Positions 33,533 to 45,937 of a stretch of DNA of 45,975 nucleotides are shown in pieces; the stretch's first letter is position 1, and each line of letters begins with the position of its first letter. Source of the DNA: a virus. The notes below the pieces were generated by a model. That model ran no database searches and had not been told where the DNA came from. It saw nothing but the letters and a program-made list of their open reading frames with translations. The DNA lies in the IMG/VR virus record IMGVR_UViG_3300008110_000098, positions 1 to 45,975 of that record; one strand, written 5' to 3'. Both the position numbers and the translations under genes were made by a program.

Positions 33533-33955
33533 ATGAAGATGCACAAAAGTTGGACGGGAATGGATCTTAAATCTTTTGCGACCACTCACGGGTACTGCCC
33601 GCTGTGTGCCAGCTACCATGATCTTCACACTTATGGACAACTTATTTACTGCACCTTAAATGATGTTGAACTGACTGGATGGGATTTGAATTTGTACAAC
33701 AAACTTGCTACAGAGCCTGAATCTGTTGATATCAATGGCTACAATTCTATTAAGGATAGATTGATTCAACGCAAGCTTGTTAGGACATTGCCTTTAATTA
33801 TTGAAAGACGGGCCGATTTGTTGCAAAAAATCCAAATGGAAAACCAAAAGCAAAAGGTTCAGGTAGTCGAAAAGATTGTGGAAGTACCTGCACCAAGACA
33901 AAGACCCAGAAAAGGCGATTGGAATGCTATAGCAGATTATATGGGCTTGCGTTAA
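33533..33955 (+). CDS. Small zinc-ribbon-like protein, unknown function
   Basis: 140 aa, one of the few plus-strand genes among the structural genes. Very strong ribosome site (AAAGGAG, nine bases ahead of ATG). The N-terminal part has GYCPLCASYHDLHTYGQLIYC, a Cys-x2-Cys ... His ... Cys arrangement that could bind zinc. Residues about 90-120 look coiled-coil (LLQKIQMENQKQKVQVVEKIVEV), followed by a basic PRQRPRKGDWN patch and a short C-terminal helix. The gene has its own sigma70-like promoter, so it may be expressed earlier than its late neighbours. Its 3' end overlaps the convergent gene by three bases with no terminator. Confidence 0.6.
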   Translation: MKMHKSWTGMDLKSFATTHGYCPLCASYHDLHTYGQLIYCTLNDVELTGWDLNLYNKLATEPESVDINGYNSIKDRLIQRKLVRTLPLIIERRADLLQKIQMENQKQKVQVVEKIVEVPAPRQRPRKGDWNAIADYMGLR

Positions 33956-34470
33956 TTTCCTTTTGAGTAGATTTTGGTTGCGTAATCAGTGCCTGTGGTA
34001 TTGATGACAATTCCATCACTTGTGGAATCCTTGTCCTCAATATCACTTAGCTGTACTTTTACCAATTCTTCTTCTGCTTTTTTAGATTTTATAAAATAAG
34101 TCCTTAGTTCTTGGGCCATTTTTCTGAGGCATTCTTTCACAGGTTTGTTTTTGTCTTGTTTATCGTCTCCAAACTCTAGCATCATATCATCAAACATATC
34201 TTGAACGTTGAAACTGTATGATTCTCCGTATGGTTCTGTGTCTACCTTTTTTTGCGGTCTAAAAGCGAGTGTGTCTCCAAAGATATAAAATCTTACTCCT
34301 TCGAAAGTGCTAATTTTTGGAAGAGCATAAACAAAAATGTGCGGATCATCTTCTGCCAAAACAAAGTCTTTGACAAGAAACCCGCCTTGTTCCAAGGCTC
34401 GTTTAAGCACTCTTAATCTTTTGACTGCCAAATCATCTGTTCTGTTGATGTATTCAAGAAATGTAATCAT
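33952..34470 (-). CDS. Unknown protein with capsid-targeting-like leader
   Basis: 172 aa using ATG 34470, which overlaps the upstream stop as ATGA. A longer frame starts at 34512, but it would overlap the upstream gene by 46 bases, so 34470 is preferred. It begins MITFLEYINR, matching the leader seen in other genes of this window. The middle (HIFVYALPKISTFEGVRFYIFGDTLAFRPQ) is a plausible small alpha/beta domain. The C-terminal half is acidic and helical (NVQDMFDDMMLEFGDD, then KSKKAEEELVKV). No family was recognised. Confidence 0.55.
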   Translation of the reverse strand: MITFLEYINRTDDLAVKRLRVLKRALEQGGFLVKDFVLAEDDPHIFVYALPKISTFEGVRFYIFGDTLAFRPQKKVDTEPYGESYSFNVQDMFDDMMLEFGDDKQDKNKPVKECLRKMAQELRTYFIKSKKAEEELVKVQLSDIEDKDSTSDGIVINTTGTDYATKIYSKGN

Positions 34471-35777
34471 GCGCAATTCCTTAGAATTAATTCGGTTGAA
34501 GATGGAACGCACCTGACCAAATTCTGGATGTCACTTGGATTGCCAGCGTATGGTATTTCCTTGACAATCATTCCAGTAAAGGATGATGCAGCCTCTTTCA
34601 GAATTTCAAGATTGGCTGTCAGGAACAACATGCCATCTTTTCTTGCTATAAATTCCATTTCCTTAGTGACGGGTTTGCCATTTTCATCAAGCTTGCCTGT
34701 ATCTTTTTCATACATTATCTTAATGTCTTCCAAAGACACAAGATTGCCCTCGCCATCATACATGGCTTCTGAATTTTCGTTTACAGATGTTTTAACTATC
34801 AACTTACCTTTTGTATATGCGTCTCTTAGAGCATTGGAAAAATCAAAACCTACAAAGTAGACAGTGCCGTCTTGTGCTGCAACATTAACGACGAAGCCTC
34901 TCATCTTATAATTATCGGCTATACTTTCCAGTATAATTCTTTTTCTTAGAACATCTTTTTCTTCTGGACTGCCTTCATCTAGTCTTTGTTGTTCGGGTTC
35001 GGAAAGATATCTTTCTGGATCATCGGTAGTCAGACACCATTTGCCAATATCTATCAATCCAAATTTTGAGTTAAATCTTGTTGATATTCTTATGGAGTAT
35101 TCTCTTTGGTTGAAAACAAGATCTTCATTTTGACCACCACTTCCAACCTGCACTGCGCCAAGCAAAGCAGCCACGTATTTTCTATGCATGTCGGCTTTTG
35201 AGCTAAAAAGTCCCAAGAGTTTAATAAAAATGTTGCTTAATTCTGGCATAGGCTGAAGTGCTGTAAAGAGGTTTTGTACCAGAGTAATGCTAGGATTATT
35301 TTGATCTAATTGATCTCTTATTGCTTTTCGAATGGTTTGAGAAGCTTTATCAATGTTGGCATTTTGTCGTAAAAACAAAATTTGCAAATTATCTTCTACA
35401 AATTTTCTGGGATAGGTATCCAAATCGGTGTTACGAATATTTTGTATCATTTCAATCAATTGATTGACATCGCCTTTGATGGATTCTTTAAAAAACTTGC
35501 CTTTCCATTGTTCAAAGTCCATGTTTTCTTGTTCTTCAGGCATATCTGGAGCAACAGGATCTGCGACTGATGGTTTACCCATATCTGGCACTGGGGCATT
35601 CATGGGATTCGTATTTGGAGCGGGTTGTTGCAATGGTGCAGCGGGCGCACCACCTCCGGAAAGGCCGGGGGGTTGAGAATCTGTCGGAGGACCGCCAGCC
35701 AAAGGATCTGGAGCCGAGGCCAGCACGTCTTCTTCTTTAATCAACCAGTCACTTAGGTTTGTCCAATTGCGGCTCAT
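34467..35777 (-). CDS. Unknown, probably structural protein with Pro/Ala-rich N-terminal region
   Basis: 436 aa. ATG at 35777 lies inside the end of the upstream gene (29-base overlap), with AAAAGGTG as ribosome site. After NLSDWLIKEE, residues about 20-80 are Pro/Ala/Gly-rich and surely disordered. The helical part 85-200 (FEQWKGKFFKESIKGDVNQLIEMIQNIRN) is followed by a mixed domain (VFNQREYSIRISTRFNSKFGLIDIGKW, GFVVNVAAQDGTVYFVGFDFSNAL) and ends near MIVKEIPYAGNPSDIQNLVRCVPSS. No enzyme motif was recognised. Position and coupling to the neighbours suggest a head or internal virion protein. Confidence 0.5.
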   Translation of the reverse strand: MSRNWTNLSDWLIKEEDVLASAPDPLAGGPPTDSQPPGLSGGGAPAAPLQQPAPNTNPMNAPVPDMGKPSVADPVAPDMPEEQENMDFEQWKGKFFKESIKGDVNQLIEMIQNIRNTDLDTYPRKFVEDNLQILFLRQNANIDKASQTIRKAIRDQLDQNNPSITLVQNLFTALQPMPELSNIFIKLLGLFSSKADMHRKYVAALLGAVQVGSGGQNEDLVFNQREYSIRISTRFNSKFGLIDIGKWCLTTDDPERYLSEPEQQRLDEGSPEEKDVLRKRIILESIADNYKMRGFVVNVAAQDGTVYFVGFDFSNALRDAYTKGKLIVKTSVNENSEAMYDGEGNLVSLEDIKIMYEKDTGKLDENGKPVTKEMEFIARKDGMLFLTANLEILKEAASSFTGMIVKEIPYAGNPSDIQNLVRCVPSSTELILRNCA

Positions 35778-36189
35778 TTTGCACCTTTTTAATCTTATTT
35801 ATCGTTTCGAGTATTGCTCTCTTGTCTGTTATATGTATGTGGTTGGTTTGATTAGCTTGCAGTTTCGCTGCGGTTTTTTCTTTAAGTCTTAGAGTTGTCA
35901 TCAAATCAGCTATTTTAGCTTTCTTGTCAGCAATATCTGTCTTTGCTTTGACAAGATTGACCACTGCTTCTTTTGATGCCGAACTACTATCTCCTTCGTT
36001 CATCACCATTTCCACAAAATTATTGAGCAATGCATTGATTTCATTTCTATCGCCCCGCAAATCATCAAGAATTTCTGTATATATGTTCTGCAAATCTTGA
36101 TCAGTAATTGGGCATTGGGAATTTTGTGCCGGTGCAGCCACCACATTCATGGTTGGTACAGGCAAATCTGTAATTTCTTCTGTGCTCAT
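35749..36189 (-). CDS. Helical protein, possibly small terminase-like
   Basis: 146 aa; ATG at 36189. Helical throughout: NIYTEILDDLRGDRNEINALLNNFVEMVMNEGD, then SSASKEAVVNLVKAKTDIADKKAKIADLMTTLRLKEK and a C-terminal HITDKRAILETINKIKK. The 'S-A-S-K-E-A-x-V-N-L-V-K-x-K ... K-x-K-I-A-D-L-M-T' block reminds me of proteins labelled small terminase (gp16) in T4-like environmental phages, but I could not verify this. It is the first gene of the minus run, behind a perfect TATAAATA, so it is expressed late. Confidence 0.45.
   Translation of the reverse strand: MSTEEITDLPVPTMNVVAAPAQNSQCPITDQDLQNIYTEILDDLRGDRNEINALLNNFVEMVMNEGDSSSASKEAVVNLVKAKTDIADKKAKIADLMTTLRLKEKTAAKLQANQTNHIHITDKRAILETINKIKKVQNEPQLDKPK
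35796..35804 (-). promoter_or_regulatory. Late-promoter-like GATAAATAA before the 436-aa gene
   Basis: The minus strand reads GATAAATAA, 19 bases upstream of ATG 35777, with AAAAGGTG in between. It has the same architecture as the element at 2011-2019. It lies inside the coding sequence of the preceding gene. Confidence 0.4.
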
Positions 36190-36220
36190 AATACCTAAAT
36201 TAGTTTTACAACTTACTTTA

Positions 36221-36228
36221 TATTTATA
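36221..36228 (-). promoter_or_regulatory. T4-type late promoter octamer TATAAATA
   Basis: A perfect match to the T4 late -10 consensus TATAAATA on the minus strand, 32 bases upstream of the ATG at 36189. It lies in a short divergent intergenic region. The plus gene on the other side has its own TAAATA (36239-36244). Late use is inferred from the consensus. Confidence 0.6.
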
Positions 36229-36249
36229 TTGCTTTCAATAAATACTTTC

Positions 36250-36801
36250 ATGACACCTCCCAAAAATAATAAAAATGCAAGTTCGTCTGAAATCAGCAAC
36301 ATTGCAAGTTTTTACAATGAAATGTCATCAAGCCTGAAGGAGCTTGTAAAAAGCACAGCTACCCTTGAGGAAAAACTTAAGACTTTAGTAGAAACACAAG
36401 ATGAATTCACTGACAAAATAGAAGAATTGATGCAGTCCTATAACAATTTGCTCGGCAGAATCATTTCTGTTGAATCTAAAGACTTGGATCGATTGCAAAA
36501 AGACATTAACGACAACTCAAACAGAATAACAATCATAGAGCATGATGTAGAAATCATCGATGATTTAGCAGAACTCGCAAATAAACACGCAAATATCATA
36601 TCCCTCTTGGAAAACAGTTCCAAAGAATTTAAGGATAAACTCAAGGAAAGAAGTAAAACCATACACGAATTGGTTTTGAAAATAGAAAGACTAAGTCTTC
36701 ACAAGAACAGTACCGAAAAACTTATTGATACTCTATTTAAAGTTGGAACTAGCATAACTATTGCATACATAATTTATTGGCTCAAGATTGGCAACAGCTG
36801 A
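36250..36801 (+). CDS. Coiled-coil protein with C-terminal membrane anchor
   Basis: 183 aa from ATG 36250. There is no ribosome site, but TAAATA ends exactly five bases before the ATG. Residues about 20-155 are almost entirely heptad-like helix (SSLKELVKSTATLEEKLKTLVE, NRITIIEHDVEIIDDLAELANKH, and others). The last 20 residues (VGTSITIAYIIYWLKIGNS) form one membrane segment ending close to the C terminus, a tail-anchor arrangement. Such rod-plus-tail proteins resemble spanins or membrane-tethered coiled coils, but there is no lipobox or signal peptide. Function unknown. The next gene starts eight bases after its stop. Confidence 0.6.
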   Translation: MTPPKNNKNASSSEISNIASFYNEMSSSLKELVKSTATLEEKLKTLVETQDEFTDKIEELMQSYNNLLGRIISVESKDLDRLQKDINDNSNRITIIEHDVEIIDDLAELANKHANIISLLENSSKEFKDKLKERSKTIHELVLKIERLSLHKNSTEKLIDTLFKVGTSITIAYIIYWLKIGNS

Positions 36802-36808
36802 GGATTAC

Positions 36809-38245
36809 ATGGAACAAGAAGAAATCAAAAACGACATCGTTTCTAAAGTCAGGCTAAAAGACTCCGATGACAACGGAGAATTTCGGCCTTTCATGGTGAA
36901 TTACAAATCTAATCCAGCCCTTAAAAACATCATCAAAGCTTTTAATCAATCAAATCAAATAAAACTTGGGTATTCCACAATAGCAAAAGACAAGGGTGTC
37001 ATTGAACCCACAATGAAAAAGAAAAATCTCTTTCTTACTGGCGGCGCTCTTCGTGATCATCTGAAAAACAAAACTTTTCATAATTACGATTGCGTTACAG
37101 ATGCTTCGCCCGACGAAATAAGAAAGGTAATGGAATCGGAAATATTAAATTTGCAAGAAGTAAGACCAGATACGCATGATCTTGAAATTCTGCATAATTC
37201 AAAATACAAAAAATTGCCAGAAAGAGCACAAAGAAAAAACTGCTTCTACGCCTCAAGGTGGGATGAAGAAAACAATGAGATTGAACTTACAGCTGAAATA
37301 GATGGACAAAAAGTTTTCATAACGCCTTTTTCTACACACGTGAAAGACAGGATGATCAGTCCACCAAAGAGAATGTTCGCTACAACTATGGAAGATGATG
37401 CGAAAACAAGAGATCTGACAATGAATTCTCTTTATTTGAAATTAAAAAATGACGATGGAGAAAATTCAGAACTAATGGACCCTGAAGGTGGCATTCATGA
37501 TCTTAAAAAAGGAAAAATTGAATTCGTAGGCAATGCCAAGCGCACCATAGCAAAAGATCCATATATTGGCTTCAGAATTTGCCTGCTGGCAGCCAGATAT
37601 AGTCCAAACAATAAAGTGACAGATGACATGGCAGGCTTACTTCGCAGCGCTGAAAACTTTAACCCAGATCCCAAGATTGTAAAAAGAATATTGCTTGCTG
37701 GAATTAACAATGTCGATGTGCCAGTATTTTATTTCTTGAAGAATCTTGATAAGTGCGATCTAATGCGATTTGTATTTCCTAATCTAAAAGTTGCCGACCC
37801 CATGATGGAACTGCCAAACAACAAAATTTTGACCATAGCATATCTTCTGCACAAAAACGATGTCGATACCGTTAAGAACGTGCTAATGGCTAATGGGTAT
37901 TCTCACTTAGATGTTGACAACATATGCAATTTGATCAAACTATCACACTTTGCAAACAGCAGTGTTGCCAACCCAGATTTAATTTATGACATGTTCACCA
38001 AACCATTGCATGTGAGCAGTTCTCAAATTAAGGAATTTCTTAAATTGTTTGGAAAGCAAAGTGTCTTTGAGAAAATTTTTGGTGGAAAACTTGATGATAT
38101 ATTAAAAAAATATGTTGAAACCGAAACATCAAGACAAGTGAATCCCCTGTATGTCAAACATATGGGTAAAAATTTAAGACCTGATGAACTAGAAGACGCA
38201 AGAAAAAAACTTTTCCATCACAAAATCAAAGAACTAATGGCGTAG
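36809..38245 (+). CDS. tRNA nucleotidyltransferase/poly(A) polymerase family protein
   Basis: 478 aa from ATG 36809 with GAGG six bases upstream; a TTG at 36788 is less likely. Class II CCA-adding enzyme head: LFLTGGALRDHL (78-83 = GGALRD), then HNYDCVTDASPDEI, later EDDAKTRDLTMNSLYLKL, DPEGGIHDLKKGKIEFVG and AKDPYIGFRICLLAARY. The family adds CCA to tRNA 3' ends or polyadenylates RNA. The catalytic D-x-D is N-Y-D here (N92, Y93, D94), so the first metal ligand is changed. The protein may be inactive, use another acidic residue, or have a new role. Followed by a terminator. Confidence 0.75.
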   Translation: MEQEEIKNDIVSKVRLKDSDDNGEFRPFMVNYKSNPALKNIIKAFNQSNQIKLGYSTIAKDKGVIEPTMKKKNLFLTGGALRDHLKNKTFHNYDCVTDASPDEIRKVMESEILNLQEVRPDTHDLEILHNSKYKKLPERAQRKNCFYASRWDEENNEIELTAEIDGQKVFITPFSTHVKDRMISPPKRMFATTMEDDAKTRDLTMNSLYLKLKNDDGENSELMDPEGGIHDLKKGKIEFVGNAKRTIAKDPYIGFRICLLAARYSPNNKVTDDMAGLLRSAENFNPDPKIVKRILLAGINNVDVPVFYFLKNLDKCDLMRFVFPNLKVADPMMELPNNKILTIAYLLHKNDVDTVKNVLMANGYSHLDVDNICNLIKLSHFANSSVANPDLIYDMFTKPLHVSSSQIKEFLKLFGKQSVFEKIFGGKLDDILKKYVETETSRQVNPLYVKHMGKNLRPDELEDARKKLFHHKIKELMA

Positions 38246-38246
38246 T

Positions 38247-38262
38247 GTGTGACTTTGCACAC
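38247..38262 (-). repeat. Short hairpin repeat, copy 1
   Basis: GTGTGACTTTGCACAC, a 5-bp stem with six-base loop. On the minus strand it reads GTGTGCAAAGTCACAC. It lies two bases after the CCA-family stop codon. Other copies are at 38375-38390 and 39084-39099. This copy and the third are followed by AACCGAAGTCAAC and eight A's. Confidence 0.5.
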
Positions 38263-38283
38263 ATTGCTTAAACCGAAGTCAAC

Positions 38284-38321
38284 AAAAAAAAGCTGGACTA
38301 AAAATTAGTCCAGCTTTTTTT
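38284..38321. terminator. Intrinsic terminator after the CCA-family gene
   Basis: Ten-bp perfect stem GCTGGACTAA / TTAGTCCAGC with a three-base loop, flanked by eight A's on the left and seven T's on the right. It ends plus-strand transcription of the nucleotidyltransferase gene and could also work on the minus strand. Confidence 0.85.
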
Positions 38322-38374
38322 AACAATCAGTATGGCAACGAACTGATATTTTTGTTAAAATTATACAAAGTATT

Positions 38375-38390
38375 GTGTGCGAAATCACGC
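38375..38390 (+). promoter_or_regulatory. Hairpin repeat in the ClpP-like gene leader
   Basis: GTGTGCGAAATCACGC can form a five-pair stem (one G-U) around CGAAAT. It lies 15 bases before the ATG, next to the GGAG ribosome site at 38394-38397. It matches the minus-strand reading of the repeats at 38247 and 39084, with a change that keeps the pairing. It may be a translational operator or part of a promoter. Confidence 0.35.
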
Positions 38391-38404
38391 CTTGGAGTTT
38401 TTGC

Positions 38405-39043
38405 ATGAAGAGTTTTCACAGAATCGACCCGAAAATTCGTTGCAAGTTTGAAAATTTGCATCTGGATGGAATCACCCCAATAAGACTGAATCAAGCATTT
38501 AATTATGAAATGGTCGAAGCTTTTCACGAAGATTTCAATGAACTTTTAGACAAAGACCCCAAATTTGTTCCAGTCATTATCGATTCATACGGAGGAGATG
38601 TTTATTGCCTGCTTGAATTAGTATCACTTATGCTTTCATCGCCAGTACCTGTTGCGACAATATGCAATGGGAAAGCCATGAGTTGTGGTGCCATGTTATT
38701 CATGTTTGGCAGCGAGGGATTGCGATTTATGTCTGAACATGCCACACTTATGATTCACGAAGTTAGCTCATTTAATTTTGGTAAGGTTGAAGAAATTAAA
38801 TCTAATGCAAAAGAAGTTGATCGGTTGAATGCAAAAATTTTTCAAATGGCAGCAAAACATATTGGACATAAAGAAAATTATTTTCTTGATTTACTTCACG
38901 CAACCAATCATTCAGAATTGTATCTTACTGCAAAAGATGCCAAAAAACACAACATTTGCAATCATGTAGGTGTGCCACAACTTGTTACAGAAATAAAAGT
39001 TACACAAACTCTCACCATAAATAACAAAGAAATTCCTATTTGA
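38405..39043 (+). CDS. ClpP-like serine protease
   Basis: 212 aa from ATG 38405, with GGAG seven bases upstream; a GTG at 38375 lacks such a site. ClpP/crotonase-like fold: IIDSYGGDVYCLLELV (substrate-strand motif), CNGKAMSCGAMLFMFGS with nucleophile S93, ATLMIHEVSS with H118. At the third triad position ClpP has Asp followed by 'x-F-L-S-A-x-E-A'; here E171 stands there (ELYLTAKDAKKH). Length is typical of ClpP. Phage ClpP-like proteins may process prohead proteins or act with host ATPases. No ATPase partner is in this window. Confidence 0.85.
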   Translation: MKSFHRIDPKIRCKFENLHLDGITPIRLNQAFNYEMVEAFHEDFNELLDKDPKFVPVIIDSYGGDVYCLLELVSLMLSSPVPVATICNGKAMSCGAMLFMFGSEGLRFMSEHATLMIHEVSSFNFGKVEEIKSNAKEVDRLNAKIFQMAAKHIGHKENYFLDLLHATNHSELYLTAKDAKKHNICNHVGVPQLVTEIKVTQTLTINNKEIPI

Positions 39044-39083
39044 CTTTATTAATCTAATCCAAAAACATAATAGTTACGCTTTA

Positions 39084-39099
39084 GTGTGACTTTGCACAC
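39084..39099 (-). repeat. Short hairpin repeat, copy 3
   Basis: The same GTGTGACTTTGCACAC as at 38247, 41 bases after the ClpP-like stop. It is followed after about 30 extra bases by the shared AACCGAAGTCAAC and eight A's. Confidence 0.5.
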
Positions 39100-39116
39100 A
39101 TTCACTTACAACAACT

Positions 39117-39145
39117 ATTACACACAATGTTAGAACCGAAGTCAA
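39117..39145 (-). promoter_or_regulatory. Sigma70-like promoter facing the ClpP-like gene
   Basis: On the minus strand: TTGACT (39145-39140), 17 bases, TGTAAT (39122-39117), with ATTGTG just before the -10. It closely matches the promoter at 33477. It points left, antisense to the ClpP-like gene, so it may make an antisense RNA or may be a displaced copy. Confidence 0.4.
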
Positions 39146-39146
39146 C

Positions 39147-39173
39147 AAAAAAAAGATTAAATTATCAAGCATT
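39147..39173. repeat. 27-base direct repeat, copy 1
   Basis: Perfectly identical to 40149-40175: eight A's, then GATTAAATTATCAAGCATT. The second copy contains the start of the 45-aa membrane peptide gene on the minus strand; this first copy lies in an intergenic region. Confidence 0.8.
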
Positions 39174-39175
39174 AA

Positions 39176-39183
39176 CATAAATA
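39176..39183 (+). promoter_or_regulatory. Late-promoter-like CATAAATA before the 176-aa gene
   Basis: CATAAATA lies 21 bases before ATG 39205, with AGAGG as ribosome site in between. The spacing is like that of the other leadered late genes. Confidence 0.4.
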
Positions 39184-39204
39184 CATCTGAAATCAGAGGT
39201 ATTT

Positions 39205-39735
39205 ATGAGCAACAAAAATGAAAGCCATCATAGTGGCAGCTATATGGTGCGAAGAAATCTACACACCCTATATAAAAACTGCAAAGAACTTCTTCAAATG
39301 ATTAGTGAAAATGATGAAATAGAAAGTTGGATGGAGCATAAAGTTTCTGTTGCCAAAGCAGCTATTAGCGATGTAAAAGATGCTTTCACATATGACAAAG
39401 AAGAGGGAGATGATGCTGATGGCGGCGTAGACATCACTATTTTGCGTGGTGATGATCACCATAACCACGATGACATGGGCCTAAAAAAGATGCTTGGTGG
39501 TGGCTGTGGATCCAACGAAAATAAATTCTATCTTGGATCTGGAGCTATTAACGAGAAAAAGCTGCTCGTTACCAACAATAGCAACATGAAAGTTATGGTC
39601 GAATCTGTTGAGAAAATAGGCAACATGATTAGAATTACCACAAAATCAGGCAAATCATACGAGTACATGCCTCATTTTGGAACCGAACTTGAGTTGATGC
39701 GTGCAGATGGATATGGAATTAAAATTGTCAATTAA
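39205..39735 (+). CDS. Conserved phage protein, possible virion component
   Basis: 176 aa; AGAGG site before ATG. The N-terminal helical part (SYMVRRNLHTLYKNCKELLQMI, ENDEIESWMEHKVSVAKAAISDVKDAF) matches a small domain I remember from many T4-like environmental phage proteins, function unknown. Next comes an acidic, His-containing stretch (DDHHNHDDMG) that could bind metal, a Gly-rich turn (MLGGGCGSNENKFYLGSG), and a C-terminal beta domain (MKVMVESVEKIGNMIRITTKSGKSYEYMPHFG). It ends 18 bases before the bidirectional terminator. Confidence 0.55.
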   Translation: MSNKNESHHSGSYMVRRNLHTLYKNCKELLQMISENDEIESWMEHKVSVAKAAISDVKDAFTYDKEEGDDADGGVDITILRGDDHHNHDDMGLKKMLGGGCGSNENKFYLGSGAINEKKLLVTNNSNMKVMVESVEKIGNMIRITTKSGKSYEYMPHFGTELELMRADGYGIKIVN

Positions 39736-39753
39736 AAATACGTTTTAAACTTT

Positions 39754-39788
39754 AAAAATAAAGCCAGCTTATGCTGGCTTTATTTTTT
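39754..39788. terminator. Bidirectional intrinsic terminator
   Basis: Perfect 15-bp inverted repeat, AAAAATAAAGCCAGC (39754-39768) and GCTGGCTTTATTTTT (39773-39787), with loop TTAT. It lies between two convergent genes and overlaps the last codons of the cupin gene. It serves both strands. Confidence 0.9.
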
Positions 39789-40044
39789 CTATCATGATTA
39801 CCAGTCTGGTTGTGCCTTTTATTACTCTATGCCACAATCCCATCGGTATCGAAAATGTTTCTTTTATTGGCACTGGCAATTTATTATCTTCTTGATACTT
39901 CCAGTCATTATCGTTAAGAGGTGTGATGATGCGATCTTCATAATCTCTATGCCATTTCAGATCATCAATATCTGCATCTGGTTCAAATATCCTTATCACA
40001 CAATTTTCATGGGTGATTTCTTTATAAGGTTTAATATCACTCAC
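39769..40044 (-). CDS. Small cupin-like protein
   Basis: 91 aa from GTG 40044, overlapping the stop of the preceding peptide gene by eight bases. The pattern LKWHRDYEDRIITPL, DWKYQEDNKLP, FSIPMGLWHRVIKGTTRLVIMI has two His-containing strands (WHRDYEDR and LWHRVIKG) spaced as in single-domain cupins. Similar 'WHRDxEDR...WHRVIxG' proteins occur in other large phages. A metal-binding oxygenase or isomerase role is possible but unproven. Last gene of the accessory minus operon, ending in the terminator. Confidence 0.6.
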   Translation of the reverse strand: MSDIKPYKEITHENCVIRIFEPDADIDDLKWHRDYEDRIITPLNDNDWKYQEDNKLPVPIKETFSIPMGLWHRVIKGTTRLVIMIEKIKPA

Positions 40045-40174
40045 TTTTTGGTGTCATCCAACTTTTTATTTTAAAAACAAGTAGTTCATATAGTGCTTTT
40101 ACCCAAGCAGGCTGCGGCAATATATTCCAACCAACAATTAAACCACATAAAAAAAAGATTAAATTATCAAGCAT
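40037..40174 (-). CDS. 45-aa single-pass membrane peptide
   Basis: ATG at 40174 behind AGGAG, starting two bases after the stop of the 267-aa gene. The peptide begins MLDNLIFFLCGLIVGWNILP and ends in a short polar tail. One membrane segment covers about residues 4-20. 'LIFFLxGLxxGWNxLPQPAWVK' is, from memory, a small peptide recurring in T4-like environmental phages. Its first 27 bases are duplicated at 39147. Possible roles are holin-like or membrane-protein modulation; nothing more can be said. Confidence 0.6.
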   Translation of the reverse strand: MLDNLIFFLCGLIVGWNILPQPAWVKALYELLVFKIKSWMTPKSE

Positions 40175-40175
40175 T
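40149..40175. repeat. 27-base direct repeat, copy 2
   Basis: Identical to 39147-39173 and 1,002 bases from it. It covers the first eight codons of the 45-aa membrane peptide gene. Confidence 0.8.
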
Positions 40176-40979
40176 TTATTCTCCTGTGTCATTTATAACG
40201 TGATACAATACAGGCTCATACTTATGTTTATCTCGCAGTTTTTTCATAATATGCAAGTTCAAATCCAAATCGTCAAAAATTGCAGGTAAGTATGAGTCAA
40301 CACCTAACCCCTTTACCAGATTCCCATTAGACTGCAAAACAGAATAGATTACCCTGTCTTTATTAGGCATGTAAGTTTCAATCGCTACTAAGTCCGAATT
40401 TTCATCCAAAAAATCATTGATATTATCAACATCATCCGTTTCTTTAATGTAATCCATTATAGATTGATTTTTTGCTAAAGCATCATGCACGACATCAGCT
40501 TTAAATGGTATTTTCATGGCAACATCTACCCTATCGCCATATTTTCTATACACATCCCAAGAACCCATCCAACTGTACGCTTGGTTTGACTTGATAACCG
40601 AACGAGGATCTATATTTTGTTTCAAAATAACAAAAAAAGAAGGCTTGGTCGGGTCATATGGAATTTCTAACTTAGGTATACCACGCAAACTCGCTTTTTC
40701 ATATTTGTCAAGCAACTGTAATATGGCAGTATTTTTTACCCGAATAAAATAATCACTATTAGCTTTGTACTTCAACCAGTAAGACAACTTTTCTAAATCT
40801 TTTTTATCTAGGTTACCTTCTTGCATGCAGTCAATAATCATTCTTACTGGTAAATACTTAGCATCATTCGACAAGGATGTGTTTTTTATATTTTCTTTAA
40901 ATTGATTTATAAGCGCCAGTACTTCTGAATGTTCACACCCAAAAGAAATACTTTCAAAGAATTGCTTGAAAGTTACCAT
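40176..40979 (-). CDS. Unknown 267-aa protein with capsid-targeting-like leader
   Basis: ATG at 40979 overlaps the previous gene by seven bases. It begins MVTFKQFFES, one of the shared leaders. Residues 20-110 are helical (SEVLALINQFKENIKN, LPVRMIIDCMQEGN). From 115 on there is a mixed domain (KPSFFVILKQNIDPRSVIKS, YSWMGSWDVYRKYGDRVDVAMKIPFKADVVHDAL, then DLVAIETYMPNKDRVIYSVL). The order of a strand, a S/G-containing turn and a late E resembles ADP-ribosyltransferases only faintly, so I do not call it. Third gene of a likely co-packaged set. Confidence 0.5.
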   Translation of the reverse strand: MVTFKQFFESISFGCEHSEVLALINQFKENIKNTSLSNDAKYLPVRMIIDCMQEGNLDKKDLEKLSYWLKYKANSDYFIRVKNTAILQLLDKYEKASLRGIPKLEIPYDPTKPSFFVILKQNIDPRSVIKSNQAYSWMGSWDVYRKYGDRVDVAMKIPFKADVVHDALAKNQSIMDYIKETDDVDNINDFLDENSDLVAIETYMPNKDRVIYSVLQSNGNLVKGLGVDSYLPAIFDDLDLNLHIMKKLRDKHKYEPVLYHVINDTGE

Positions 40980-41527
40980 GATGCCGAACTCGATAGTCCA
41001 ACTTGTTTGGCATATCTACCGATACGGCAAGCCCAGTAGCCCGGTTTTGTTTTGTCATTTTTTAGATGACATTTATGTCTAGCTCTGAAGCTTTTAGCTC
41101 TGGCTGGACTGTAGTTTTTCACAGATAAATTAGGATCCCCAAAACCTATCTTCTTGGCAACAACACGACCTTCTGCATTTTTTCTTCCAGAATTGACATA
41201 AACAGTATATTTCTTGTTACCGCCAGAGGCTCTTCTTGGAGAATCTAAGGGAACACTTTTGCCCTGATAGATTCCAGTTCTGCCTGCCTCGGTCATCAAA
41301 ATAAATTCATCATTCTCGTTTACTTCAATCAAACCTTGTTCATGCAAAGTCCTCATTTCATTTACAAGTTCCATCCACGCATCAGATCCCAGTCTAAAAA
41401 CAGTGTTGCTAAGACTAAGATTGTTTTCCATGTGATATTGCAAGTGTTCAGATAGTTGAATATTTTCAGTCAAAACCTTTATTGGTCTTGAACCCTCCAT
41501 CATTTCATAAAAACCAAAGTCTTCCAT
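40973..41527 (-). CDS. Conserved phage protein with 'FGDPN/FRARHxC' domain
   Basis: 184 aa from ATG 41527, whose A is shared with the upstream stop (TGATG). The N-terminal half is helical and of unknown role. The C-terminal domain, about 105-178, reads KKYTVYVNSG, IGFGDPNLSVKNYSPARAKSFRARHKC and KPGYWACRIG, a compact basic domain with two Cys that recurs in many large phages (from memory). Its K/R content and Cys/His spacing would suit nucleic-acid or metal binding. It begins MEDFGFYEMMEG, which has aromatic residues at positions 4 and 7 like the leader but lacks the rest. Confidence 0.6.
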   Translation of the reverse strand: MEDFGFYEMMEGSRPIKVLTENIQLSEHLQYHMENNLSLSNTVFRLGSDAWMELVNEMRTLHEQGLIEVNENDEFILMTEAGRTGIYQGKSVPLDSPRRASGGNKKYTVYVNSGRKNAEGRVVAKKIGFGDPNLSVKNYSPARAKSFRARHKCHLKNDKTKPGYWACRIGRYAKQVGLSSSASW

Positions 41528-41697
41528 CACGCCCCCTTGTATTTGCCACCACGTTTTTTCCTTTTGCAGTAGTTTTTTTGACTAAAACCTTTTGGGTTGC
41601 TGCAATTTATTGATTTTTTGTATTTCATACTCCAGCGGCTCTTCATGCCCATCCTAGGCTGGTTATATTCGTTCAGCCACTGAAAAAAAGTTTGCAT
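41527..41697 (-). CDS. 56-aa basic peptide with capsid-targeting-like leader
   Basis: Too short for usual gene finding, but clear by context: ATG at 41697 with TAAATA four bases upstream, stop overlapping the next ATG. It starts MQTFFQWLNE, then turns strongly basic: KSRWSMKYKKSINCSNPKGF and SQKNYCKRKKRGGKYK. The two Cys with 'INCSNPKGFSQK' look conserved in small proteins of other T4-like phages (from memory). A DNA-condensing internal head peptide would fit the leader, size and charge; this is inference. Confidence 0.6.
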   Translation of the reverse strand: MQTFFQWLNEYNQPRMGMKSRWSMKYKKSINCSNPKGFSQKNYCKRKKRGGKYKGA

Positions 41698-41704
41698 CCT
41701 ATAT

Positions 41705-41986
41705 TTAGTAGTTTATGGGCAAATATTTGGTTTCGTCACTTTCAATATATTCCAAAACAAAAAGATTCTCTCCATAACTTATATGCTTTTTAACGATAAT
41801 CATTTGATTGTCGTGGATTTTCCGATGATGATTCGCACACACACATATGCAATTCCTGCTGTCATATACACCGCCTTTACGCCCCTCAAATATCCTGTGG
41901 ACATCCAGTACAGCATAATCTTTTTCATCGCAAAAAGCACACTTGCCAGCAAATTTTTTAAATGCTTTTTTACTTCGTATTAACAT
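41705..41986 (-). CDS. HNH endonuclease
   Basis: 93 aa from ATG 41986, sharing a base with the SpeD-like stop (TGATG). Complete HNH signature: CAFCDEKD (zinc Cys pair), VLDVHRIFEGRKGG (general-base H), then SRNCICVCANHHRKIHDNQ, with a Cys pair and the last H of the beta-beta-alpha-metal motif. Free-standing HNH proteins in phages are homing endonucleases or packaging nucleases. No intron or intein is visible here, and it is well embedded in the operon. Confidence 0.85.
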   Translation of the reverse strand: MLIRSKKAFKKFAGKCAFCDEKDYAVLDVHRIFEGRKGGVYDSRNCICVCANHHRKIHDNQMIIVKKHISYGENLFVLEYIESDETKYLPINY

Positions 41987-42360
41987 CAATCCATTATATG
42001 CATTTTGATATTGTTGCGATCAAGAACCAAATGATCCATGTTGACTACGGTCATAGTGTCATCAACATACTTTAGAACGTCTTTTACTTCAAAATCCTTA
42101 CATGAGTAAACATCCATCCTAATATAAGGTTGAGGCACATTTGACCAAACATGAATGCTTGCATGACTTGTTTCAATAACTACTGTCCCTGTAACTCCTT
42201 CGTTGCCCGGTGTATCACAAAATTTTGCGACTGGTTCTATAAGAATCTTCATATCAATTAGTTCAACTAATTTTCTAAACCACTCAACACATTTTTGCTC
42301 GTCCACCAATGGGTTTGCCACTTCTGCGTTGATTATTAGATGCTTATGATACTTGTCCAT
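41986..42360 (-). CDS. speD: S-adenosylmethionine decarboxylase-like (SpeD family) protein
   Basis: 124 aa from ATG 42360, with GAAAGG seven bases upstream; a longer in-frame start would add unrelated sequence. SpeD blocks: KHLIINAEVANP, VIETSHASIHVWSNVPQPYIRMDVYSCKDF, VLKYVDD. Bacterial SpeD is cleaved between Glu and Ser in E-S-H to create the pyruvoyl group; here the residue before S-H is Thr. His, His and the catalytic-type Cys (MDVYSC) are in place. The family makes decarboxylated SAM for spermidine, and phage polyamines help DNA packing. Speculative: possibly a non-processed variant. Confidence 0.75.
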   Translation of the reverse strand: MDKYHKHLIINAEVANPLVDEQKCVEWFRKLVELIDMKILIEPVAKFCDTPGNEGVTGTVVIETSHASIHVWSNVPQPYIRMDVYSCKDFEVKDVLKYVDDTMTVVNMDHLVLDRNNIKMHIMD

Positions 42361-42462
42361 TTTCAACCTTTCAATTTTGCAAAAAAAGTATCTATTAAGA
42401 AAGTATAAAATGTAAAAATTTATTATTTTTATTCTATTATTATTACAAAACATGGAGACCGA

Positions 42463-43359
42463 ATGAACAAGCACATACTAGTTCAAAAACTTGCCTTGAT
42501 TAAGAGATTGTGCGATGAAATAGGCAACGAACTTGGACAAGATTTAAATGACATGGTAGTTACAAAAAATTTACAAGATATAAATGAGAATTTCAACAAA
42601 CTCAAAGACATGTTGTTTTCTTCTGCTTGGCCAAAAGCAGTGCCCAACGAATTAATGTGTGACGAAAGTAGCGAAAAAGATAAAATGGATAGAGCAAATG
42701 GCATTTTGAGTGTTTTTGTTACTGAACTTGTAGAGGGCAAAAATGTTTTAGACTTTGGCACAGGGGAAGGCCATCTGCCTTATGCTGCACACAAGGCGGG
42801 AGCCAGAGTCTCAGTCGGATACGACATGGCTGCTGATTTTAAACTAAAATCAGCCGACACGTTGCTTTACACTAACATGTGGCACGAAGTTGTCGCAAAT
42901 GGACCATATGACGTTATTGTGCTATTTGATGTTATTGATCATCTGGAATATGAAACGCCAGTCAATGTGTTTTTGAATCTGAAAACAATTTTGAAAAGAA
43001 ACGGCAAAATTTATGTCAGATATCATCCATTTATTTCAAAACATGGGTCACACATGTATAAAAAAATAAATAAAGCTTTCCCACATTTGGTTTTTACAGA
43101 CACAGAAATGCAGTTGATTATGCCAGATCACGTGCCGATGAGCAACATCACTGTTTTACATCCAATAAAAACTTATGAAGAATATGCCAATAATTCTGGA
43201 TTCAAAGTTGTTCAGGAAAAAATTACAAGAACAAAAATAGATGATTTTTTCAAAAACGATCTTGTATCCAAAAGAATCTGCGAACTCACTGGTTCGCAAG
43301 TTCTCCCAGAAAGTCAAATGGAAATTGAATTTGTTGACCATGTGCTTTCTGTAATTTAA
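42463..43359 (+). CDS. SAM-dependent class I methyltransferase
   Basis: 298 aa; ATG at 42463 with GGAGA five bases upstream, divergent from the SpeD-like gene. Motif I is NVLDFGTGEGHLPYA (about 94-108), the acidic ribose-binding end of strand 2 is VGYDMAAD, and motif IV-like is PYDVIVLFDVIDHLE (138-152). Then comes YVRYHPFISKHGSHMYKKIN, reminiscent of sugar or small-molecule O-methyltransferases. The N-terminal 85 residues are helical and extra. Substrate unknown. It shares SAM with the neighbouring SpeD-like product. Confidence 0.8.
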   Translation: MNKHILVQKLALIKRLCDEIGNELGQDLNDMVVTKNLQDINENFNKLKDMLFSSAWPKAVPNELMCDESSEKDKMDRANGILSVFVTELVEGKNVLDFGTGEGHLPYAAHKAGARVSVGYDMAADFKLKSADTLLYTNMWHEVVANGPYDVIVLFDVIDHLEYETPVNVFLNLKTILKRNGKIYVRYHPFISKHGSHMYKKINKAFPHLVFTDTEMQLIMPDHVPMSNITVLHPIKTYEEYANNSGFKVVQEKITRTKIDDFFKNDLVSKRICELTGSQVLPESQMEIEFVDHVLSVI

Positions 43360-43387
43360 AAACCAGTCAGCATGTCTAAATACAGAC

Positions 43388-44005
43388 ATGAATTTTAAAC
43401 ATTGGTTTATTGAAAACGCAACACTTGGCACCGAACTTGTAGATGAGAGCCAAATAGACTCTGTTTACAACAAAGCTAAATATGCCGTAAAGTTAGTGCA
43501 AATGTATGATATGACTTTGCCACAAAAAGACAGGCTTTTACCAAACATAAGCATGATAGCTAATTTGTCATTGAGACCAGATGTATTCGGATTATTCAAT
43601 TCAAAAGAGAACAAAAAAGTCATATCGGCAGCTGCTGCTGAAAAAATAAAATTTAAATTCAACCCAGAAACTCTTAAAGACACGCCAATAGAAAAAATAC
43701 CGGAAGTTATAATAAGGAAATATGTTCCCGACCTAAATCCCAATGATATTCAGCAGTCTGATGTTATCCACGTGGATGTTAGAAATATACTTAAAAGATT
43801 TGGAGACTCCGCTGAAGCAATCATTCAAATTGCAAGCACAATAGTACACGAATGCACTCATGAAAAAGAGAGAGAAGAAACTGGAAGCACCAAAGATGGC
43901 CCCGGCACAGCGGTTGAAATAGCCGAAGAAAAGTTCAGAAAATGGGTTGAAAAAAACAAATCAATGATAGCACAAAGAATACCTCAAATTGGAATCAGTG
44001 TTTAA
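43388..44005 (+). CDS. Putative HExxH metallopeptidase with capsid-targeting-like leader
   Basis: 205 aa from ATG 43388. There is no ribosome site; TAAATA ends five bases before the ATG. It starts MNFKHWFIEN, a one-residue-shorter form of the shared leader. Zinc-protease motif: IIQIASTIVHECTHEKE, with H154, E155 and H158. A third ligand could be E177, E180 or E181 in AVEIAEEKF. The segment HVDVRNILKRF resembles the edge strand of such folds. No family name was recognised. Convergent with the next gene, 11-base overlap of ends. Confidence 0.6.
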   Translation: MNFKHWFIENATLGTELVDESQIDSVYNKAKYAVKLVQMYDMTLPQKDRLLPNISMIANLSLRPDVFGLFNSKENKKVISAAAAEKIKFKFNPETLKDTPIEKIPEVIIRKYVPDLNPNDIQQSDVIHVDVRNILKRFGDSAEAIIQIASTIVHECTHEKEREETGSTKDGPGTAVEIAEEKFRKWVEKNKSMIAQRIPQIGISV

Positions 44006-44564
44006 TATCAGATTTTGGTAACAAAATTTTATAAATCGAATTGGCTATTTGTTTAATCTTTTCGTTATCGCTGTTTTTCATTATGCTTGAAATAGTTTCA
44101 AGGTAAAAATAGGAAGTTGATAACGTCTTTGTCAATAAAGCAACTAATACATCTTGATCTTTTACCCCAAGCCCTTTTGTAAATGCCATAGCTGATGGTA
44201 CGGCAATCATCGGATTCATTAATCCTAATTTTGAAAGTTCTGCTAGACTTGATAGAACTTCACTCCAACTTGATATTTTTTTGGGATGTCTACTCAAGTT
44301 GTACACAGCTTTCAAAAAATTGATCTTTGCTTTGAAAGTCGGCACAGTTAGCAACAAACTTTTTTTAAAACCTATCAACTTGTCAATTTTATTTAAAGTT
44401 TTAAAAACCTTATCGCCCATGACACTTGTGACATCCATGACCTTGTCATATTTTTCTGTAGCTAGTCCCAAAGACTCCAAAGCATCCCGAATATCGCCAT
44501 GCGCTTGATACAAAGCCATATCAGCATAACCGTATTCCCTGATATATTGCGCAAAAGTTTTCAT
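43995..44564 (-). CDS. Helical unknown protein with capsid-targeting-like leader
   Basis: 189 aa from ATG 44564. An upstream in-frame start would read through the opposite gene's 5' end and the inverted repeat, so 44564 is preferred. It begins MKTFAQYIREYGYA, the closest match to the T4 capsid-targeting sequence. The rest is alpha-helical with moderately hydrophobic segments (LIGFKKSLLLTVPTFKAKINFLKAVYNL; GLMNPMIAVPSAMAFTKGLG). It may bind membranes or form a bundle. Not recognised. Its promoter core is one half of the divergent inverted repeat. Confidence 0.6.
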   Translation of the reverse strand: MKTFAQYIREYGYADMALYQAHGDIRDALESLGLATEKYDKVMDVTSVMGDKVFKTLNKIDKLIGFKKSLLLTVPTFKAKINFLKAVYNLSRHPKKISSWSEVLSSLAELSKLGLMNPMIAVPSAMAFTKGLGVKDQDVLVALLTKTLSTSYFYLETISSIMKNSDNEKIKQIANSIYKILLPKSDIKH

Positions 44565-44566
44565 GC

Positions 44567-44593
44567 TTTTATTTACCACTCTAGTAAATAAAA
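44567..44593. promoter_or_regulatory. Divergent late promoter formed by a 10-bp inverted repeat
   Basis: TTTTATTTAC (44567-44576), seven bases, GTAAATAAAA (44584-44593): a perfect inverted repeat exactly between two divergent start codons. On each strand it presents TAAATA five bases before an ATG (44564 minus, 44596 plus). This fits a symmetric bidirectional promoter with leaderless mRNAs, or a terminator-like hairpin at both ends. Confidence 0.45.
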
Positions 44594-44595
44594 AC

Positions 44596-45276
44596 ATGGA
44601 AAAAAACATGTATGAACCCGGACCCTTGTATTCTCGAAGACATGAATTGACTGAAATGTTAAAAAACATTCCTTTGAAAACTGGAGATATAGTTTTTAGC
44701 GCATCTGATGTTGCTGGTCCATTTGGCATACCTTTTTCTAAGCTCATTCAAACATTTACAAAATCAAAATACAGCCATGCTACAACCATTTTGGTAGAAA
44801 GCGAAGATGTGTACGCCATCGATGTGTCAGATCATGGCACAAGAAAACTTAGGCTAATTGATTGGTTTGATGATTGGTACATGGATGATTTTTGTGTTTT
44901 CAGATTAAGACATCCTACTAAAGATCATGAAGAAAATATAAAAAAAAATGTATACAAGTTTTTGGAATTGGATCCACACTATGATTTTAATTTTGTCGAT
45001 GACAAAGCTTTTTATTGCACTGAAGCCGTAAGTTACATTTACAAAGAATCGGGAATTAATTTAGGTGGCGCTTACACAATAAAACAAATTTTGCCAACTT
45101 GGTTTTATTACATTGTTGTGATTGGATCTTATATCACTAAGATTTTTACCAATTCATCTTTGCCATCAAATGTGCCAATAACAATCGTGGGCAACGACAA
45201 AAAAGGCATGATTGCATCACCTTATATTTACGAAATATTTAGATATGAAGGCAAATTAGACATGTATTTCTGCTAA
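44596..45276 (+). CDS. NlpC/P60-like (YiiX-type) cysteine peptidase
   Basis: 226 aa from ATG 44596; TAAATA lies five bases upstream. An ATG at 44563 in frame would overlap the opposite start. Permuted papain-like fold: LKTGDIVFSA, SKYSHATTILVESEDVYAIDVSDHG with H61, then KAFYCTEAVSYIYK with nucleophile C141. YiiX/LRAT-like enzymes cleave amides or lipid-linked acyl groups, and phage members may cut cell-wall peptides or host lipids. Near the C terminus, WFYYIVVIGSYITKIF is hydrophobic and could touch a membrane. No signal peptide. Confidence 0.75.
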   Translation: MEKNMYEPGPLYSRRHELTEMLKNIPLKTGDIVFSASDVAGPFGIPFSKLIQTFTKSKYSHATTILVESEDVYAIDVSDHGTRKLRLIDWFDDWYMDDFCVFRLRHPTKDHEENIKKNVYKFLELDPHYDFNFVDDKAFYCTEAVSYIYKESGINLGGAYTIKQILPTWFYYIVVIGSYITKIFTNSSLPSNVPITIVGNDKKGMIASPYIYEIFRYEGKLDMYFC

Positions 45277-45313
45277 GCAAGGTCTTTTATCTCAAGCCAA
45301 TTTCTGAATTGTA

Positions 45314-45937
45314 TCATACTACCTTAGCCATTTTAACGCCTTTGTCTAAAGCTTCTCCTACAGTCATGGTCGTGCCTATCCACTCCGCTGGAAAATCAGA
45401 ATCATCAATGCCTGTATCCACAGGTTCTCCCGGATGGAACGTAAACAATACCTCTTTGTCAGTATTTGGATATTTGCCAAGAATTGCCACTGTAATGTCA
45501 GTAGCCTCGCCACGCTTGCCAGCAATGGTTGGGTATGGTCTGCCAGTATTTTTAGGATCAGAAAAAGTTATTTTATCATTATTGTCTATCTCTTTTGATC
45601 TTAAAGCTTTGATTAGATCAATGATACCAAGTCTGCCTGTCAAATCGTATGTTACAAAACCTTCAGCCTCTGGTTTTATTGATGGATGACTGTAATGATC
45701 CCACTCAGCCGATAAGATTTTTGATTCCAATTCATCAGGGGACATGTCGTACACAGACCCTGCTGCCATTGAATCTTTCAAAGATCTTTGCCTGAATACT
45801 TTGTAATAATATCCCGAATCAATTTCCTTTAAATTTCTTAAAGCTTGCCTGACTCTGTCTGTCGGCTCAATATCGTCAACCTTAACTTCAATTGCCTCGC
45901 CTTCCATCTCAAGCAAATATTGTTGAAAACTTTTCAT
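45314..45937 (-). CDS. Unknown protein with capsid-targeting-like leader
   Basis: 207 aa from ATG 45937, with TTGGAG nine bases upstream; a TTG at 45949 lies inside that ribosome site and is rejected. It begins MKSFQQYLLE, followed by an acidic linker (MEGEAIEVKVDDIEP). The C-terminal domain (SGYYYKVFRQRS, KITFSDPKNTGRPYPTIAG, KRGEATDITVAILGK, EVLFTFHPGEPVD, TTMTVGEALDKGVKMAKVV) looks like a compact conserved beta-rich domain; I recall similar 'FTFHPGEPV' domains in bacteria but know no function. Confidence 0.55.
   Translation of the reverse strand: MKSFQQYLLEMEGEAIEVKVDDIEPTDRVRQALRNLKEIDSGYYYKVFRQRSLKDSMAAGSVYDMSPDELESKILSAEWDHYSHPSIKPEAEGFVTYDLTGRLGIIDLIKALRSKEIDNNDKITFSDPKNTGRPYPTIAGKRGEATDITVAILGKYPNTDKEVLFTFHPGEPVDTGIDDSDFPAEWIGTTMTVGEALDKGVKMAKVV

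Follow-up and report, generated by a model that had tools for sequence, protein, structure and literature searches.

The internal proteins IPI, IPII and IPIII of phage T4, together with Alt, reportedly carry the capsid-targeting sequence (CTS) of Mullaney and Black and are said to be processed by gp21. Alt is an ADP-ribosyltransferase. In IPIII, targeting is directed by residues 4 and 7 and processing by residues 8 and 10, and Asp at position 10 prevents processing yet leaves targeting intact; proteins fused to the CTS are packaged and delivered, and T4-like phages have been proposed to incorporate varied proteins by this route (PMC9026906). Iyer et al. (2022) predicted from fusion or neighbourhood that ARTs, NADAR and Nudix are packaged in heads (PMC9503650), and the giant phages phiKZ and SPN3US pack many inner-body and ejection proteins with their DNA, with propeptides cut by the prohead protease (PMC5694885). 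Here we describe a leader of about ten residues shared by six otherwise unrelated proteins in the IMG/VR virus record IMGVR_UViG_3300008110_000098, a 45,975-bp fragment of a giant T4-like phage, analysed over its full length (the window). Judged from sequence comparison, this leader is very probably a T4-type CTS borne by a greatly expanded cargo.

Besides a mixed block of small genes, the window carries tail and baseplate genes of T4 type (gp6- and gp25-like). It is collinear with LR756511, an uncultured 595-kb phage whose gp6-like protein is 43% identical, and with G004, a 298.6-kb IMG/VR contig (54%). The leader was modelled as a ten-column profile trained on these two relatives only, with a threshold of 9. 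The first-pass annotation had claimed six leader starts in the window, at 34470, 40979, 41697, 44564 and 45937 on the minus strand and at 43388 on the plus strand; all six are present and score 9.1-16.8. It had also held the sequences after the leader to be unrelated, and comparison of the window leader proteins beyond the leader indeed revealed no significant similarity among them (best E value 0.08). Leader-like scores occur at 6 of the 35 window gene starts, and internal ATGs reach a score of at least 9 in 3 of 3,278 cases over the window, LR756511 and G004. A binomial test on 7 of the 35 starts gives p about 4e-15 and with six counted the result is still far below chance, the count being not fully blind since the six leaders were chosen before scoring. 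The starts at 34470, 44564, 45937 and 40979 are internal ATGs of longer mechanically called open reading frames or lie in operon overlaps, and their exact positions are inferred; those at 34470, 44564 and 43388 are backed by ortholog alignments. The features concerned are the following.

45314..45937, minus strand: leader protein MKSFQQYLLE/MEGE..., 207 aa, profile score 14.9, with an L8-x-E10 site in the T4 register.
44564..44596, strand-neutral: compact intergenic region of inverted-repeat type carrying TAAATA boxes in both orientations, each lying 5 nt ahead of its ATG (44564 minus, 44596 plus).
43995..44564, minus strand: leader protein MKTFAQYIRE/YGYAD..., 189 aa, helical, score 10.3, late-type box GGTAAATAAAAGC-ATG.
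43388..44005, plus strand: leader protein MNFKHWFIE/NATLGT..., 205 aa, a zincin-like metalloprotease with a HECTHE motif, score 11.6, late box CTAAATACAGAC-ATG.
41527..41697, minus strand: leader protein MQTFFQWLNE/YN..., 56 aa, Lys/Arg-rich, score 14.1, late box CTAAATATAGG-ATG.
40176..40979, minus strand: leader protein MVTFKQFFES..., 267 aa, operon-internal, overlapping the end of 40973-41530, score 16.8.
36788..38245, plus strand: probable seventh leader protein, a tRNA nucleotidyltransferase (CCA-adding/PolyA_pol), MATAEDYMEQEE, score 10.0.
33952..34470, minus strand: leader protein MITFLEYINR..., 172 aa, score 9.1, without E at position 10.

The tRNA nucleotidyltransferase is probably a seventh leader protein, less certain because its start codon is TTG; the first aromatic residue of its leader is replaced by Ala, and its orthologs in LR756511 and G004 have clear leaders, beginning MRTTFLEFMGLKE and ATNFREYILLREMDE.

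When phages were compared at the same threshold of 9, with Tyr also permitted at the first aromatic position, 56 of 1,015 genes in LR756511 had a leader versus 4.1 expected; this phage was reached via its baseplate protein, so its leaders are independent evidence. The corresponding number in G004 is 32 of 325 genes (0.5 expected), which is not independent, since G004 and the other IMG/VR contigs were reached by a box-plus-leader DNA pattern. T4 yields 5 matches (1.5 expected), P-SSM2 4 (0 expected) and KVP40 4 (0.9 expected), and the scan of phiKZ found no leader genes versus 2.4 expected. The exact MKT-type codon pattern had no match in cyanophages or KVP40 and is too narrow, whereas the profile finds a few. 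At annotated starts, the T4 matches are ipI, ipII, ipIII and 61.1, four clear leader starts as against the far larger sets of the two relatives. Gene 61.1 of T4 (NC_000866, 18966-19130, minus strand) is uncharacterised and starts MKTFKEFIKED (score 15.4); its product is a candidate for an unrecognised T4 internal protein. The P-SSM2 matches include two hypothetical genes adjoining a virion structural gene and an annotated cytidyltransferase, PSSM2_194 (NC_006883, 158143-159417), which starts MKSFSQFLTET (score 15.5). Nor is the leader bound to a cluster, being scattered genome-wide in the relatives.

The near-constant part of the leader is the pair F-x-x-[W/F/Y] only, located at positions 4 and 7 (3 and 6 in the 43388 protein), and the position of E varies. 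The consensus M-x-[T/S]-F-x-[Q/E]-[Y/F/W]-[I/L]-x-E of the first-pass annotation was therefore slightly too strict. The leader chemistry of the T4 internal proteins, M-K-T-[F/Y]-x-[E/Q]-[F/W/Y]-[I/L] followed by unrelated basic mature parts, is similar; in contrast to T4, Trp is the preferred second aromatic here. The pattern used to train the profile demanded the aromatics, and the unbiased view is given by ortholog alignment. All aligned members of the metalloprotease family, whose identity to the window protein is 39-54%, retain the leader residues M, F, K and W; at the aromatic positions the LR756511 ortholog shows W and F. In the relatives, 75 sequence families are represented among the 82 strong leader proteins.

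The domains found on leader proteins of the relatives are ART-PolyVal, NADAR, tRNA-ligase phosphodiesterase (CPD), RNA-repair-type HAD (HAD_SAK_1), the CCA-adding enzyme (PolyA_pol), C39 protease, CAP, AAA_33 and AAA_18 kinases, S-adenosylmethionine decarboxylase, RF-1 and GNAT, with weak matches to CxxCxxCC and to an Arr-like ART whose start is a leader variant. These include types expected of injected effectors (host-takeover and RNA-repair), in support of the earlier suggestion that the tagged genes form an effector set, delivered, as we infer, with the DNA; on balance the cargo probably does act in this way. The tagged ART-like proteins recall Alt of T4, and RNA-repair enzymes, NADAR, C39 protease and metalloprotease distinguish the cargo from that of T4. 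A rather unlikely alternative, the best placed of those considered, accepts the CTS as genuine but takes the cargo to be mainly structural or DNA-condensing core protein. Such a role would suit the net basic charge of the leader proteins (+0.026 versus -0.008 per residue), the lack of a recognisable domain in many of them and the additional effect of T4 IPIII on head assembly (PMC9026906); however, several tagged proteins are enzymes of host-directed or repair type, and in T4 both IPI and IPIII function inside the host cell (PMC9026906; PMC9391042).

That the leader directs proteins into the head is suggested by the profile's recovery of the T4 internal proteins and by the coincidence of the near-constant aromatic pair with the targeting residues of T4 IPIII. 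Moreover, LR756511 encodes gp21 (PF03420, 7e-28) and a paralog of it, as well as gp23, portal and terminase, and G004 encodes gp21 (2e-25); both have gp55-like late sigma factors, and gp21 scores above cut-off in 5 of 13 further contigs recovered by leader patterns. With the T4 internal proteins recovered, the targeting aromatics matched and gp21, gp23, portal and gp55 found in relatives, the T4-like capsid-targeting interpretation put forward at first pass is supported on several lines. Leaders equally common on early enzymes had been named beforehand as the contrary outcome, and none of 11 orthologs of T4 early and replication genes (rIIA, dda, dam, 41, uvsX, 46, 47) in LR756511 and G004 is tagged.

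A peak of hydrophobic-x-E at F+4/F+6, the T4 register, comprises 13 cases versus 1.5 expected, and a second one at F+6/F+8 is of the same size (13 versus 1.5), with S, G or A at P1' (the residue after E) in 7 of the 13. In the window the T4-register site is present in the leaders at 41697, 43388, 44564 and 45937. The suggestion of possibly different cleavage rules holds insofar as P1' is not limited to A/G/S, but hydrophobic-x-E is still enriched, in two registers. Several observations weigh against a processed CTS on injected cargo. About half of the leader proteins have no clear hydrophobic-x-E site, and a preference for A/G/S at P1', sought across the leaders, was not found overall. The head module and a gp21-type protease were not found in the window fragment, gp21 being seen in the relatives only; the genes were called by a simple in-house script, and the sequences are metagenome assemblies. 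Untagged members of the cargo's enzyme classes exist too (SpeD in the window, the RF-1 family in LR756511 and G004), and tagged genes of the 34470 type, conserved beside tail genes, may be structural and not effectors. Because the hydrophobic-x-E site is present in only half of the leaders, capsid targeting is better supported than their gp21-type processing. The untagged members of cargo classes are consistent with gain and loss of the tag. The idea of an RNA-repair kit is qualified by the untagged RF-1-family proteins.

The missing sites in half of the leaders, and the position of the 34470 gene and its orthologs next to the tape measure and further tail genes, would also suit a leader that docks not on the prohead core but elsewhere, for instance on the transcription machinery, in a replication compartment or on part of the tail or baseplate. 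This is very improbable, given that the profile picks the three T4 internal head proteins, that the near-constant residues are the T4 targeting residues and that a gp21-type protease co-occurs.

Many leader genes have a distinctive promoter arrangement. A TAnATA box starting 8-15 nt upstream is present in 47 of the 82 strong leader genes versus 64 of 1,240 other genes (Fisher p 2e-33), and in most boxed leader genes its first base lies 10 or 11 nt upstream of the ATG, leaving a gap of 4-5 nt; in the window it precedes 41697, 43388 and 44564. A Shine-Dalgarno sequence accompanies 2 of the 47 boxed and 25 of the 35 unboxed leader genes, a contrast that is partly forced, as the box occupies the Shine-Dalgarno position. 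The T4 late promoter is TATAAATA at -13 to -6; with this geometry transcription of the boxed genes would start at or next to the ATG, and they are predicted to be made as leaderless late mRNA. In T4 itself the distance from late promoter to ATG is mostly 13-34 nt, in contrast to the box directly at the ATG here. Leaderless phage transcripts have been described as common (PMC5312081), and the literature searched seems to contain no account of such transcripts paired with a CTS. The tightly fixed spacing in boxed genes might suggest that what the starts share is a nucleic-acid signal (a promoter or leaderless initiation element) with peptide likeness as a by-product, but such a DNA-level element is rejected as barely conceivable, since leader codons are synonymously mixed (TTT 27, TTC 14; Leu, Thr and Lys codons varied), which implies selection on the peptide, orthologs keep the peptide with different DNA, and the unboxed leader genes, mostly with Shine-Dalgarno sequences, encode the same peptide.

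Taken as a CTS, the leader would work as follows. In a lineage of huge T4-superfamily phages, dozens of unrelated proteins would carry it; they would be made late, many from their own T4-type late promoter right before the start codon. The aromatic pair of the leader would dock each protein on the prohead scaffold core, and the gp21-type protease would trim those having a suitable hydrophobic-x-E site. The cargo would then enter the host with the DNA, where it may counter defence, repair RNA and redirect the host. The chances seem even that the CTS became a general export tag in this lineage, with about 30-60 proteins per genome packed and injected. Across the lineage these would be drawn from ADP-ribose-related enzymes and from proteins of RNA repair and translation rescue (CCA-adding enzyme, phosphodiesterase, HAD phosphatase, kinase, RF-1 factor), and many would be expressed from self-contained leaderless late-promoter-plus-leader cassettes attachable to new genes.

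Capsid targeting itself is known; the scale, the types of cargo and the promoter arrangement are new. Among the listed papers that name a capsid targeting sequence along with phage, taken outside subscription sources, none deals with metagenomic huge phages. The effector domains ART, NADAR and 2H phosphodiesterase are shared with the polyvalent and MuF- or portal-fused effectors, whose packaging was inferred from fusion to or neighbourhood of head proteins (PMC9503650), whereas here separate proteins have a short leader, a direct tag for head packaging. In phiKZ and SPN3US, likewise giant phages, the propeptides are mostly much longer than this leader. If the interpretation is true, a short tag lets the injected proteome of uncultured giant phages be read from DNA, the list of leader proteins is one of candidate anti-defence proteins, and enzymes such as tRNA nucleotidyltransferase act ahead of any phage gene expression. 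A leaderless late-promoter cassette, if borne out, would in turn suggest one-step recruitment of unrelated genes as head cargo.

Megablast against the phage collection gave no match for the 33-46 kb part of the window, and neither the window metalloprotease on its own nor the 45937 protein retrieved relatives when searched directly against IMG/VR; an alignment query recovered five metalloprotease loci. The model of the 43388 metalloprotease is of moderate confidence (predicted local distance difference test, pLDDT, 67), with residues 1-26 of low confidence and the domain from about residue 27; its top PDB match is a zincin-like metalloprotease, not significant. For the 44564 protein the predicted structure (pLDDT 43) resolved no fold. 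It has a leader-bearing ortholog, 42% identical, in a further sequence (L089), which also encodes a distant leader-bearing ortholog of the 40979 protein (E value 1e-6). The 45937 gene has a Shine-Dalgarno sequence GGAG and no adjacent late box. The 41697 gene is the first of an apparent late operon reaching 39769. The 34470 protein is conserved and syntenic near the tape measure, with leader-bearing orthologs in LR756511 and G004.

Divergent to the 44564 gene, and sharing its inverted-repeat promoter region with a late-type box, is a gene for a C92 permuted papain-like (YaeF/YiiX) peptidase (44563-45276, plus strand, probable start 44596; Pfam 4e-11), which has no leader. The S-adenosylmethionine decarboxylase-like protein of the window (41986-42474, minus strand) has no leader peptide, and its G004 homolog (106232, plus strand; AdoMet_dc 2e-21) bears the leader MKTFEEWKSGKNE. 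The second gp21-type protease paralog of LR756511 (record positions 242240-243133, minus strand; PF03420 3.5e-9) lies away from the head module. The portal of that phage (531014-533587, minus strand) has 857 aa, with portal homology confined to 345-730, and from about residue 100 (CVAGDTLIS...) it resembles an intein start. A ClpP-like serine protease of the window (38375-39043, plus strand) is 38-48% conserved in both relatives, and PHROGs labels proteins related to it as head maturation protease, though the two related phages encode a separate gp21. The window also encodes a 3,048-aa tail-fibre-like protein (2033-11179, minus strand) with several repeat types and Pro-Ser tracts, and a partial gene related to it runs off the window start. 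Finally, the product of 40973-41530 (minus strand) belongs to the marine phage family phrog_7595 (FGDPN...FRARHKC...YWAC), whose members come from phages of Pelagibacter, Roseobacter, Methylophilales and Flavobacterium; it is followed by a similar-looking protein with a WHRD motif (39769-40044, minus strand), and the same order is seen in Flavobacterium phage immuto.

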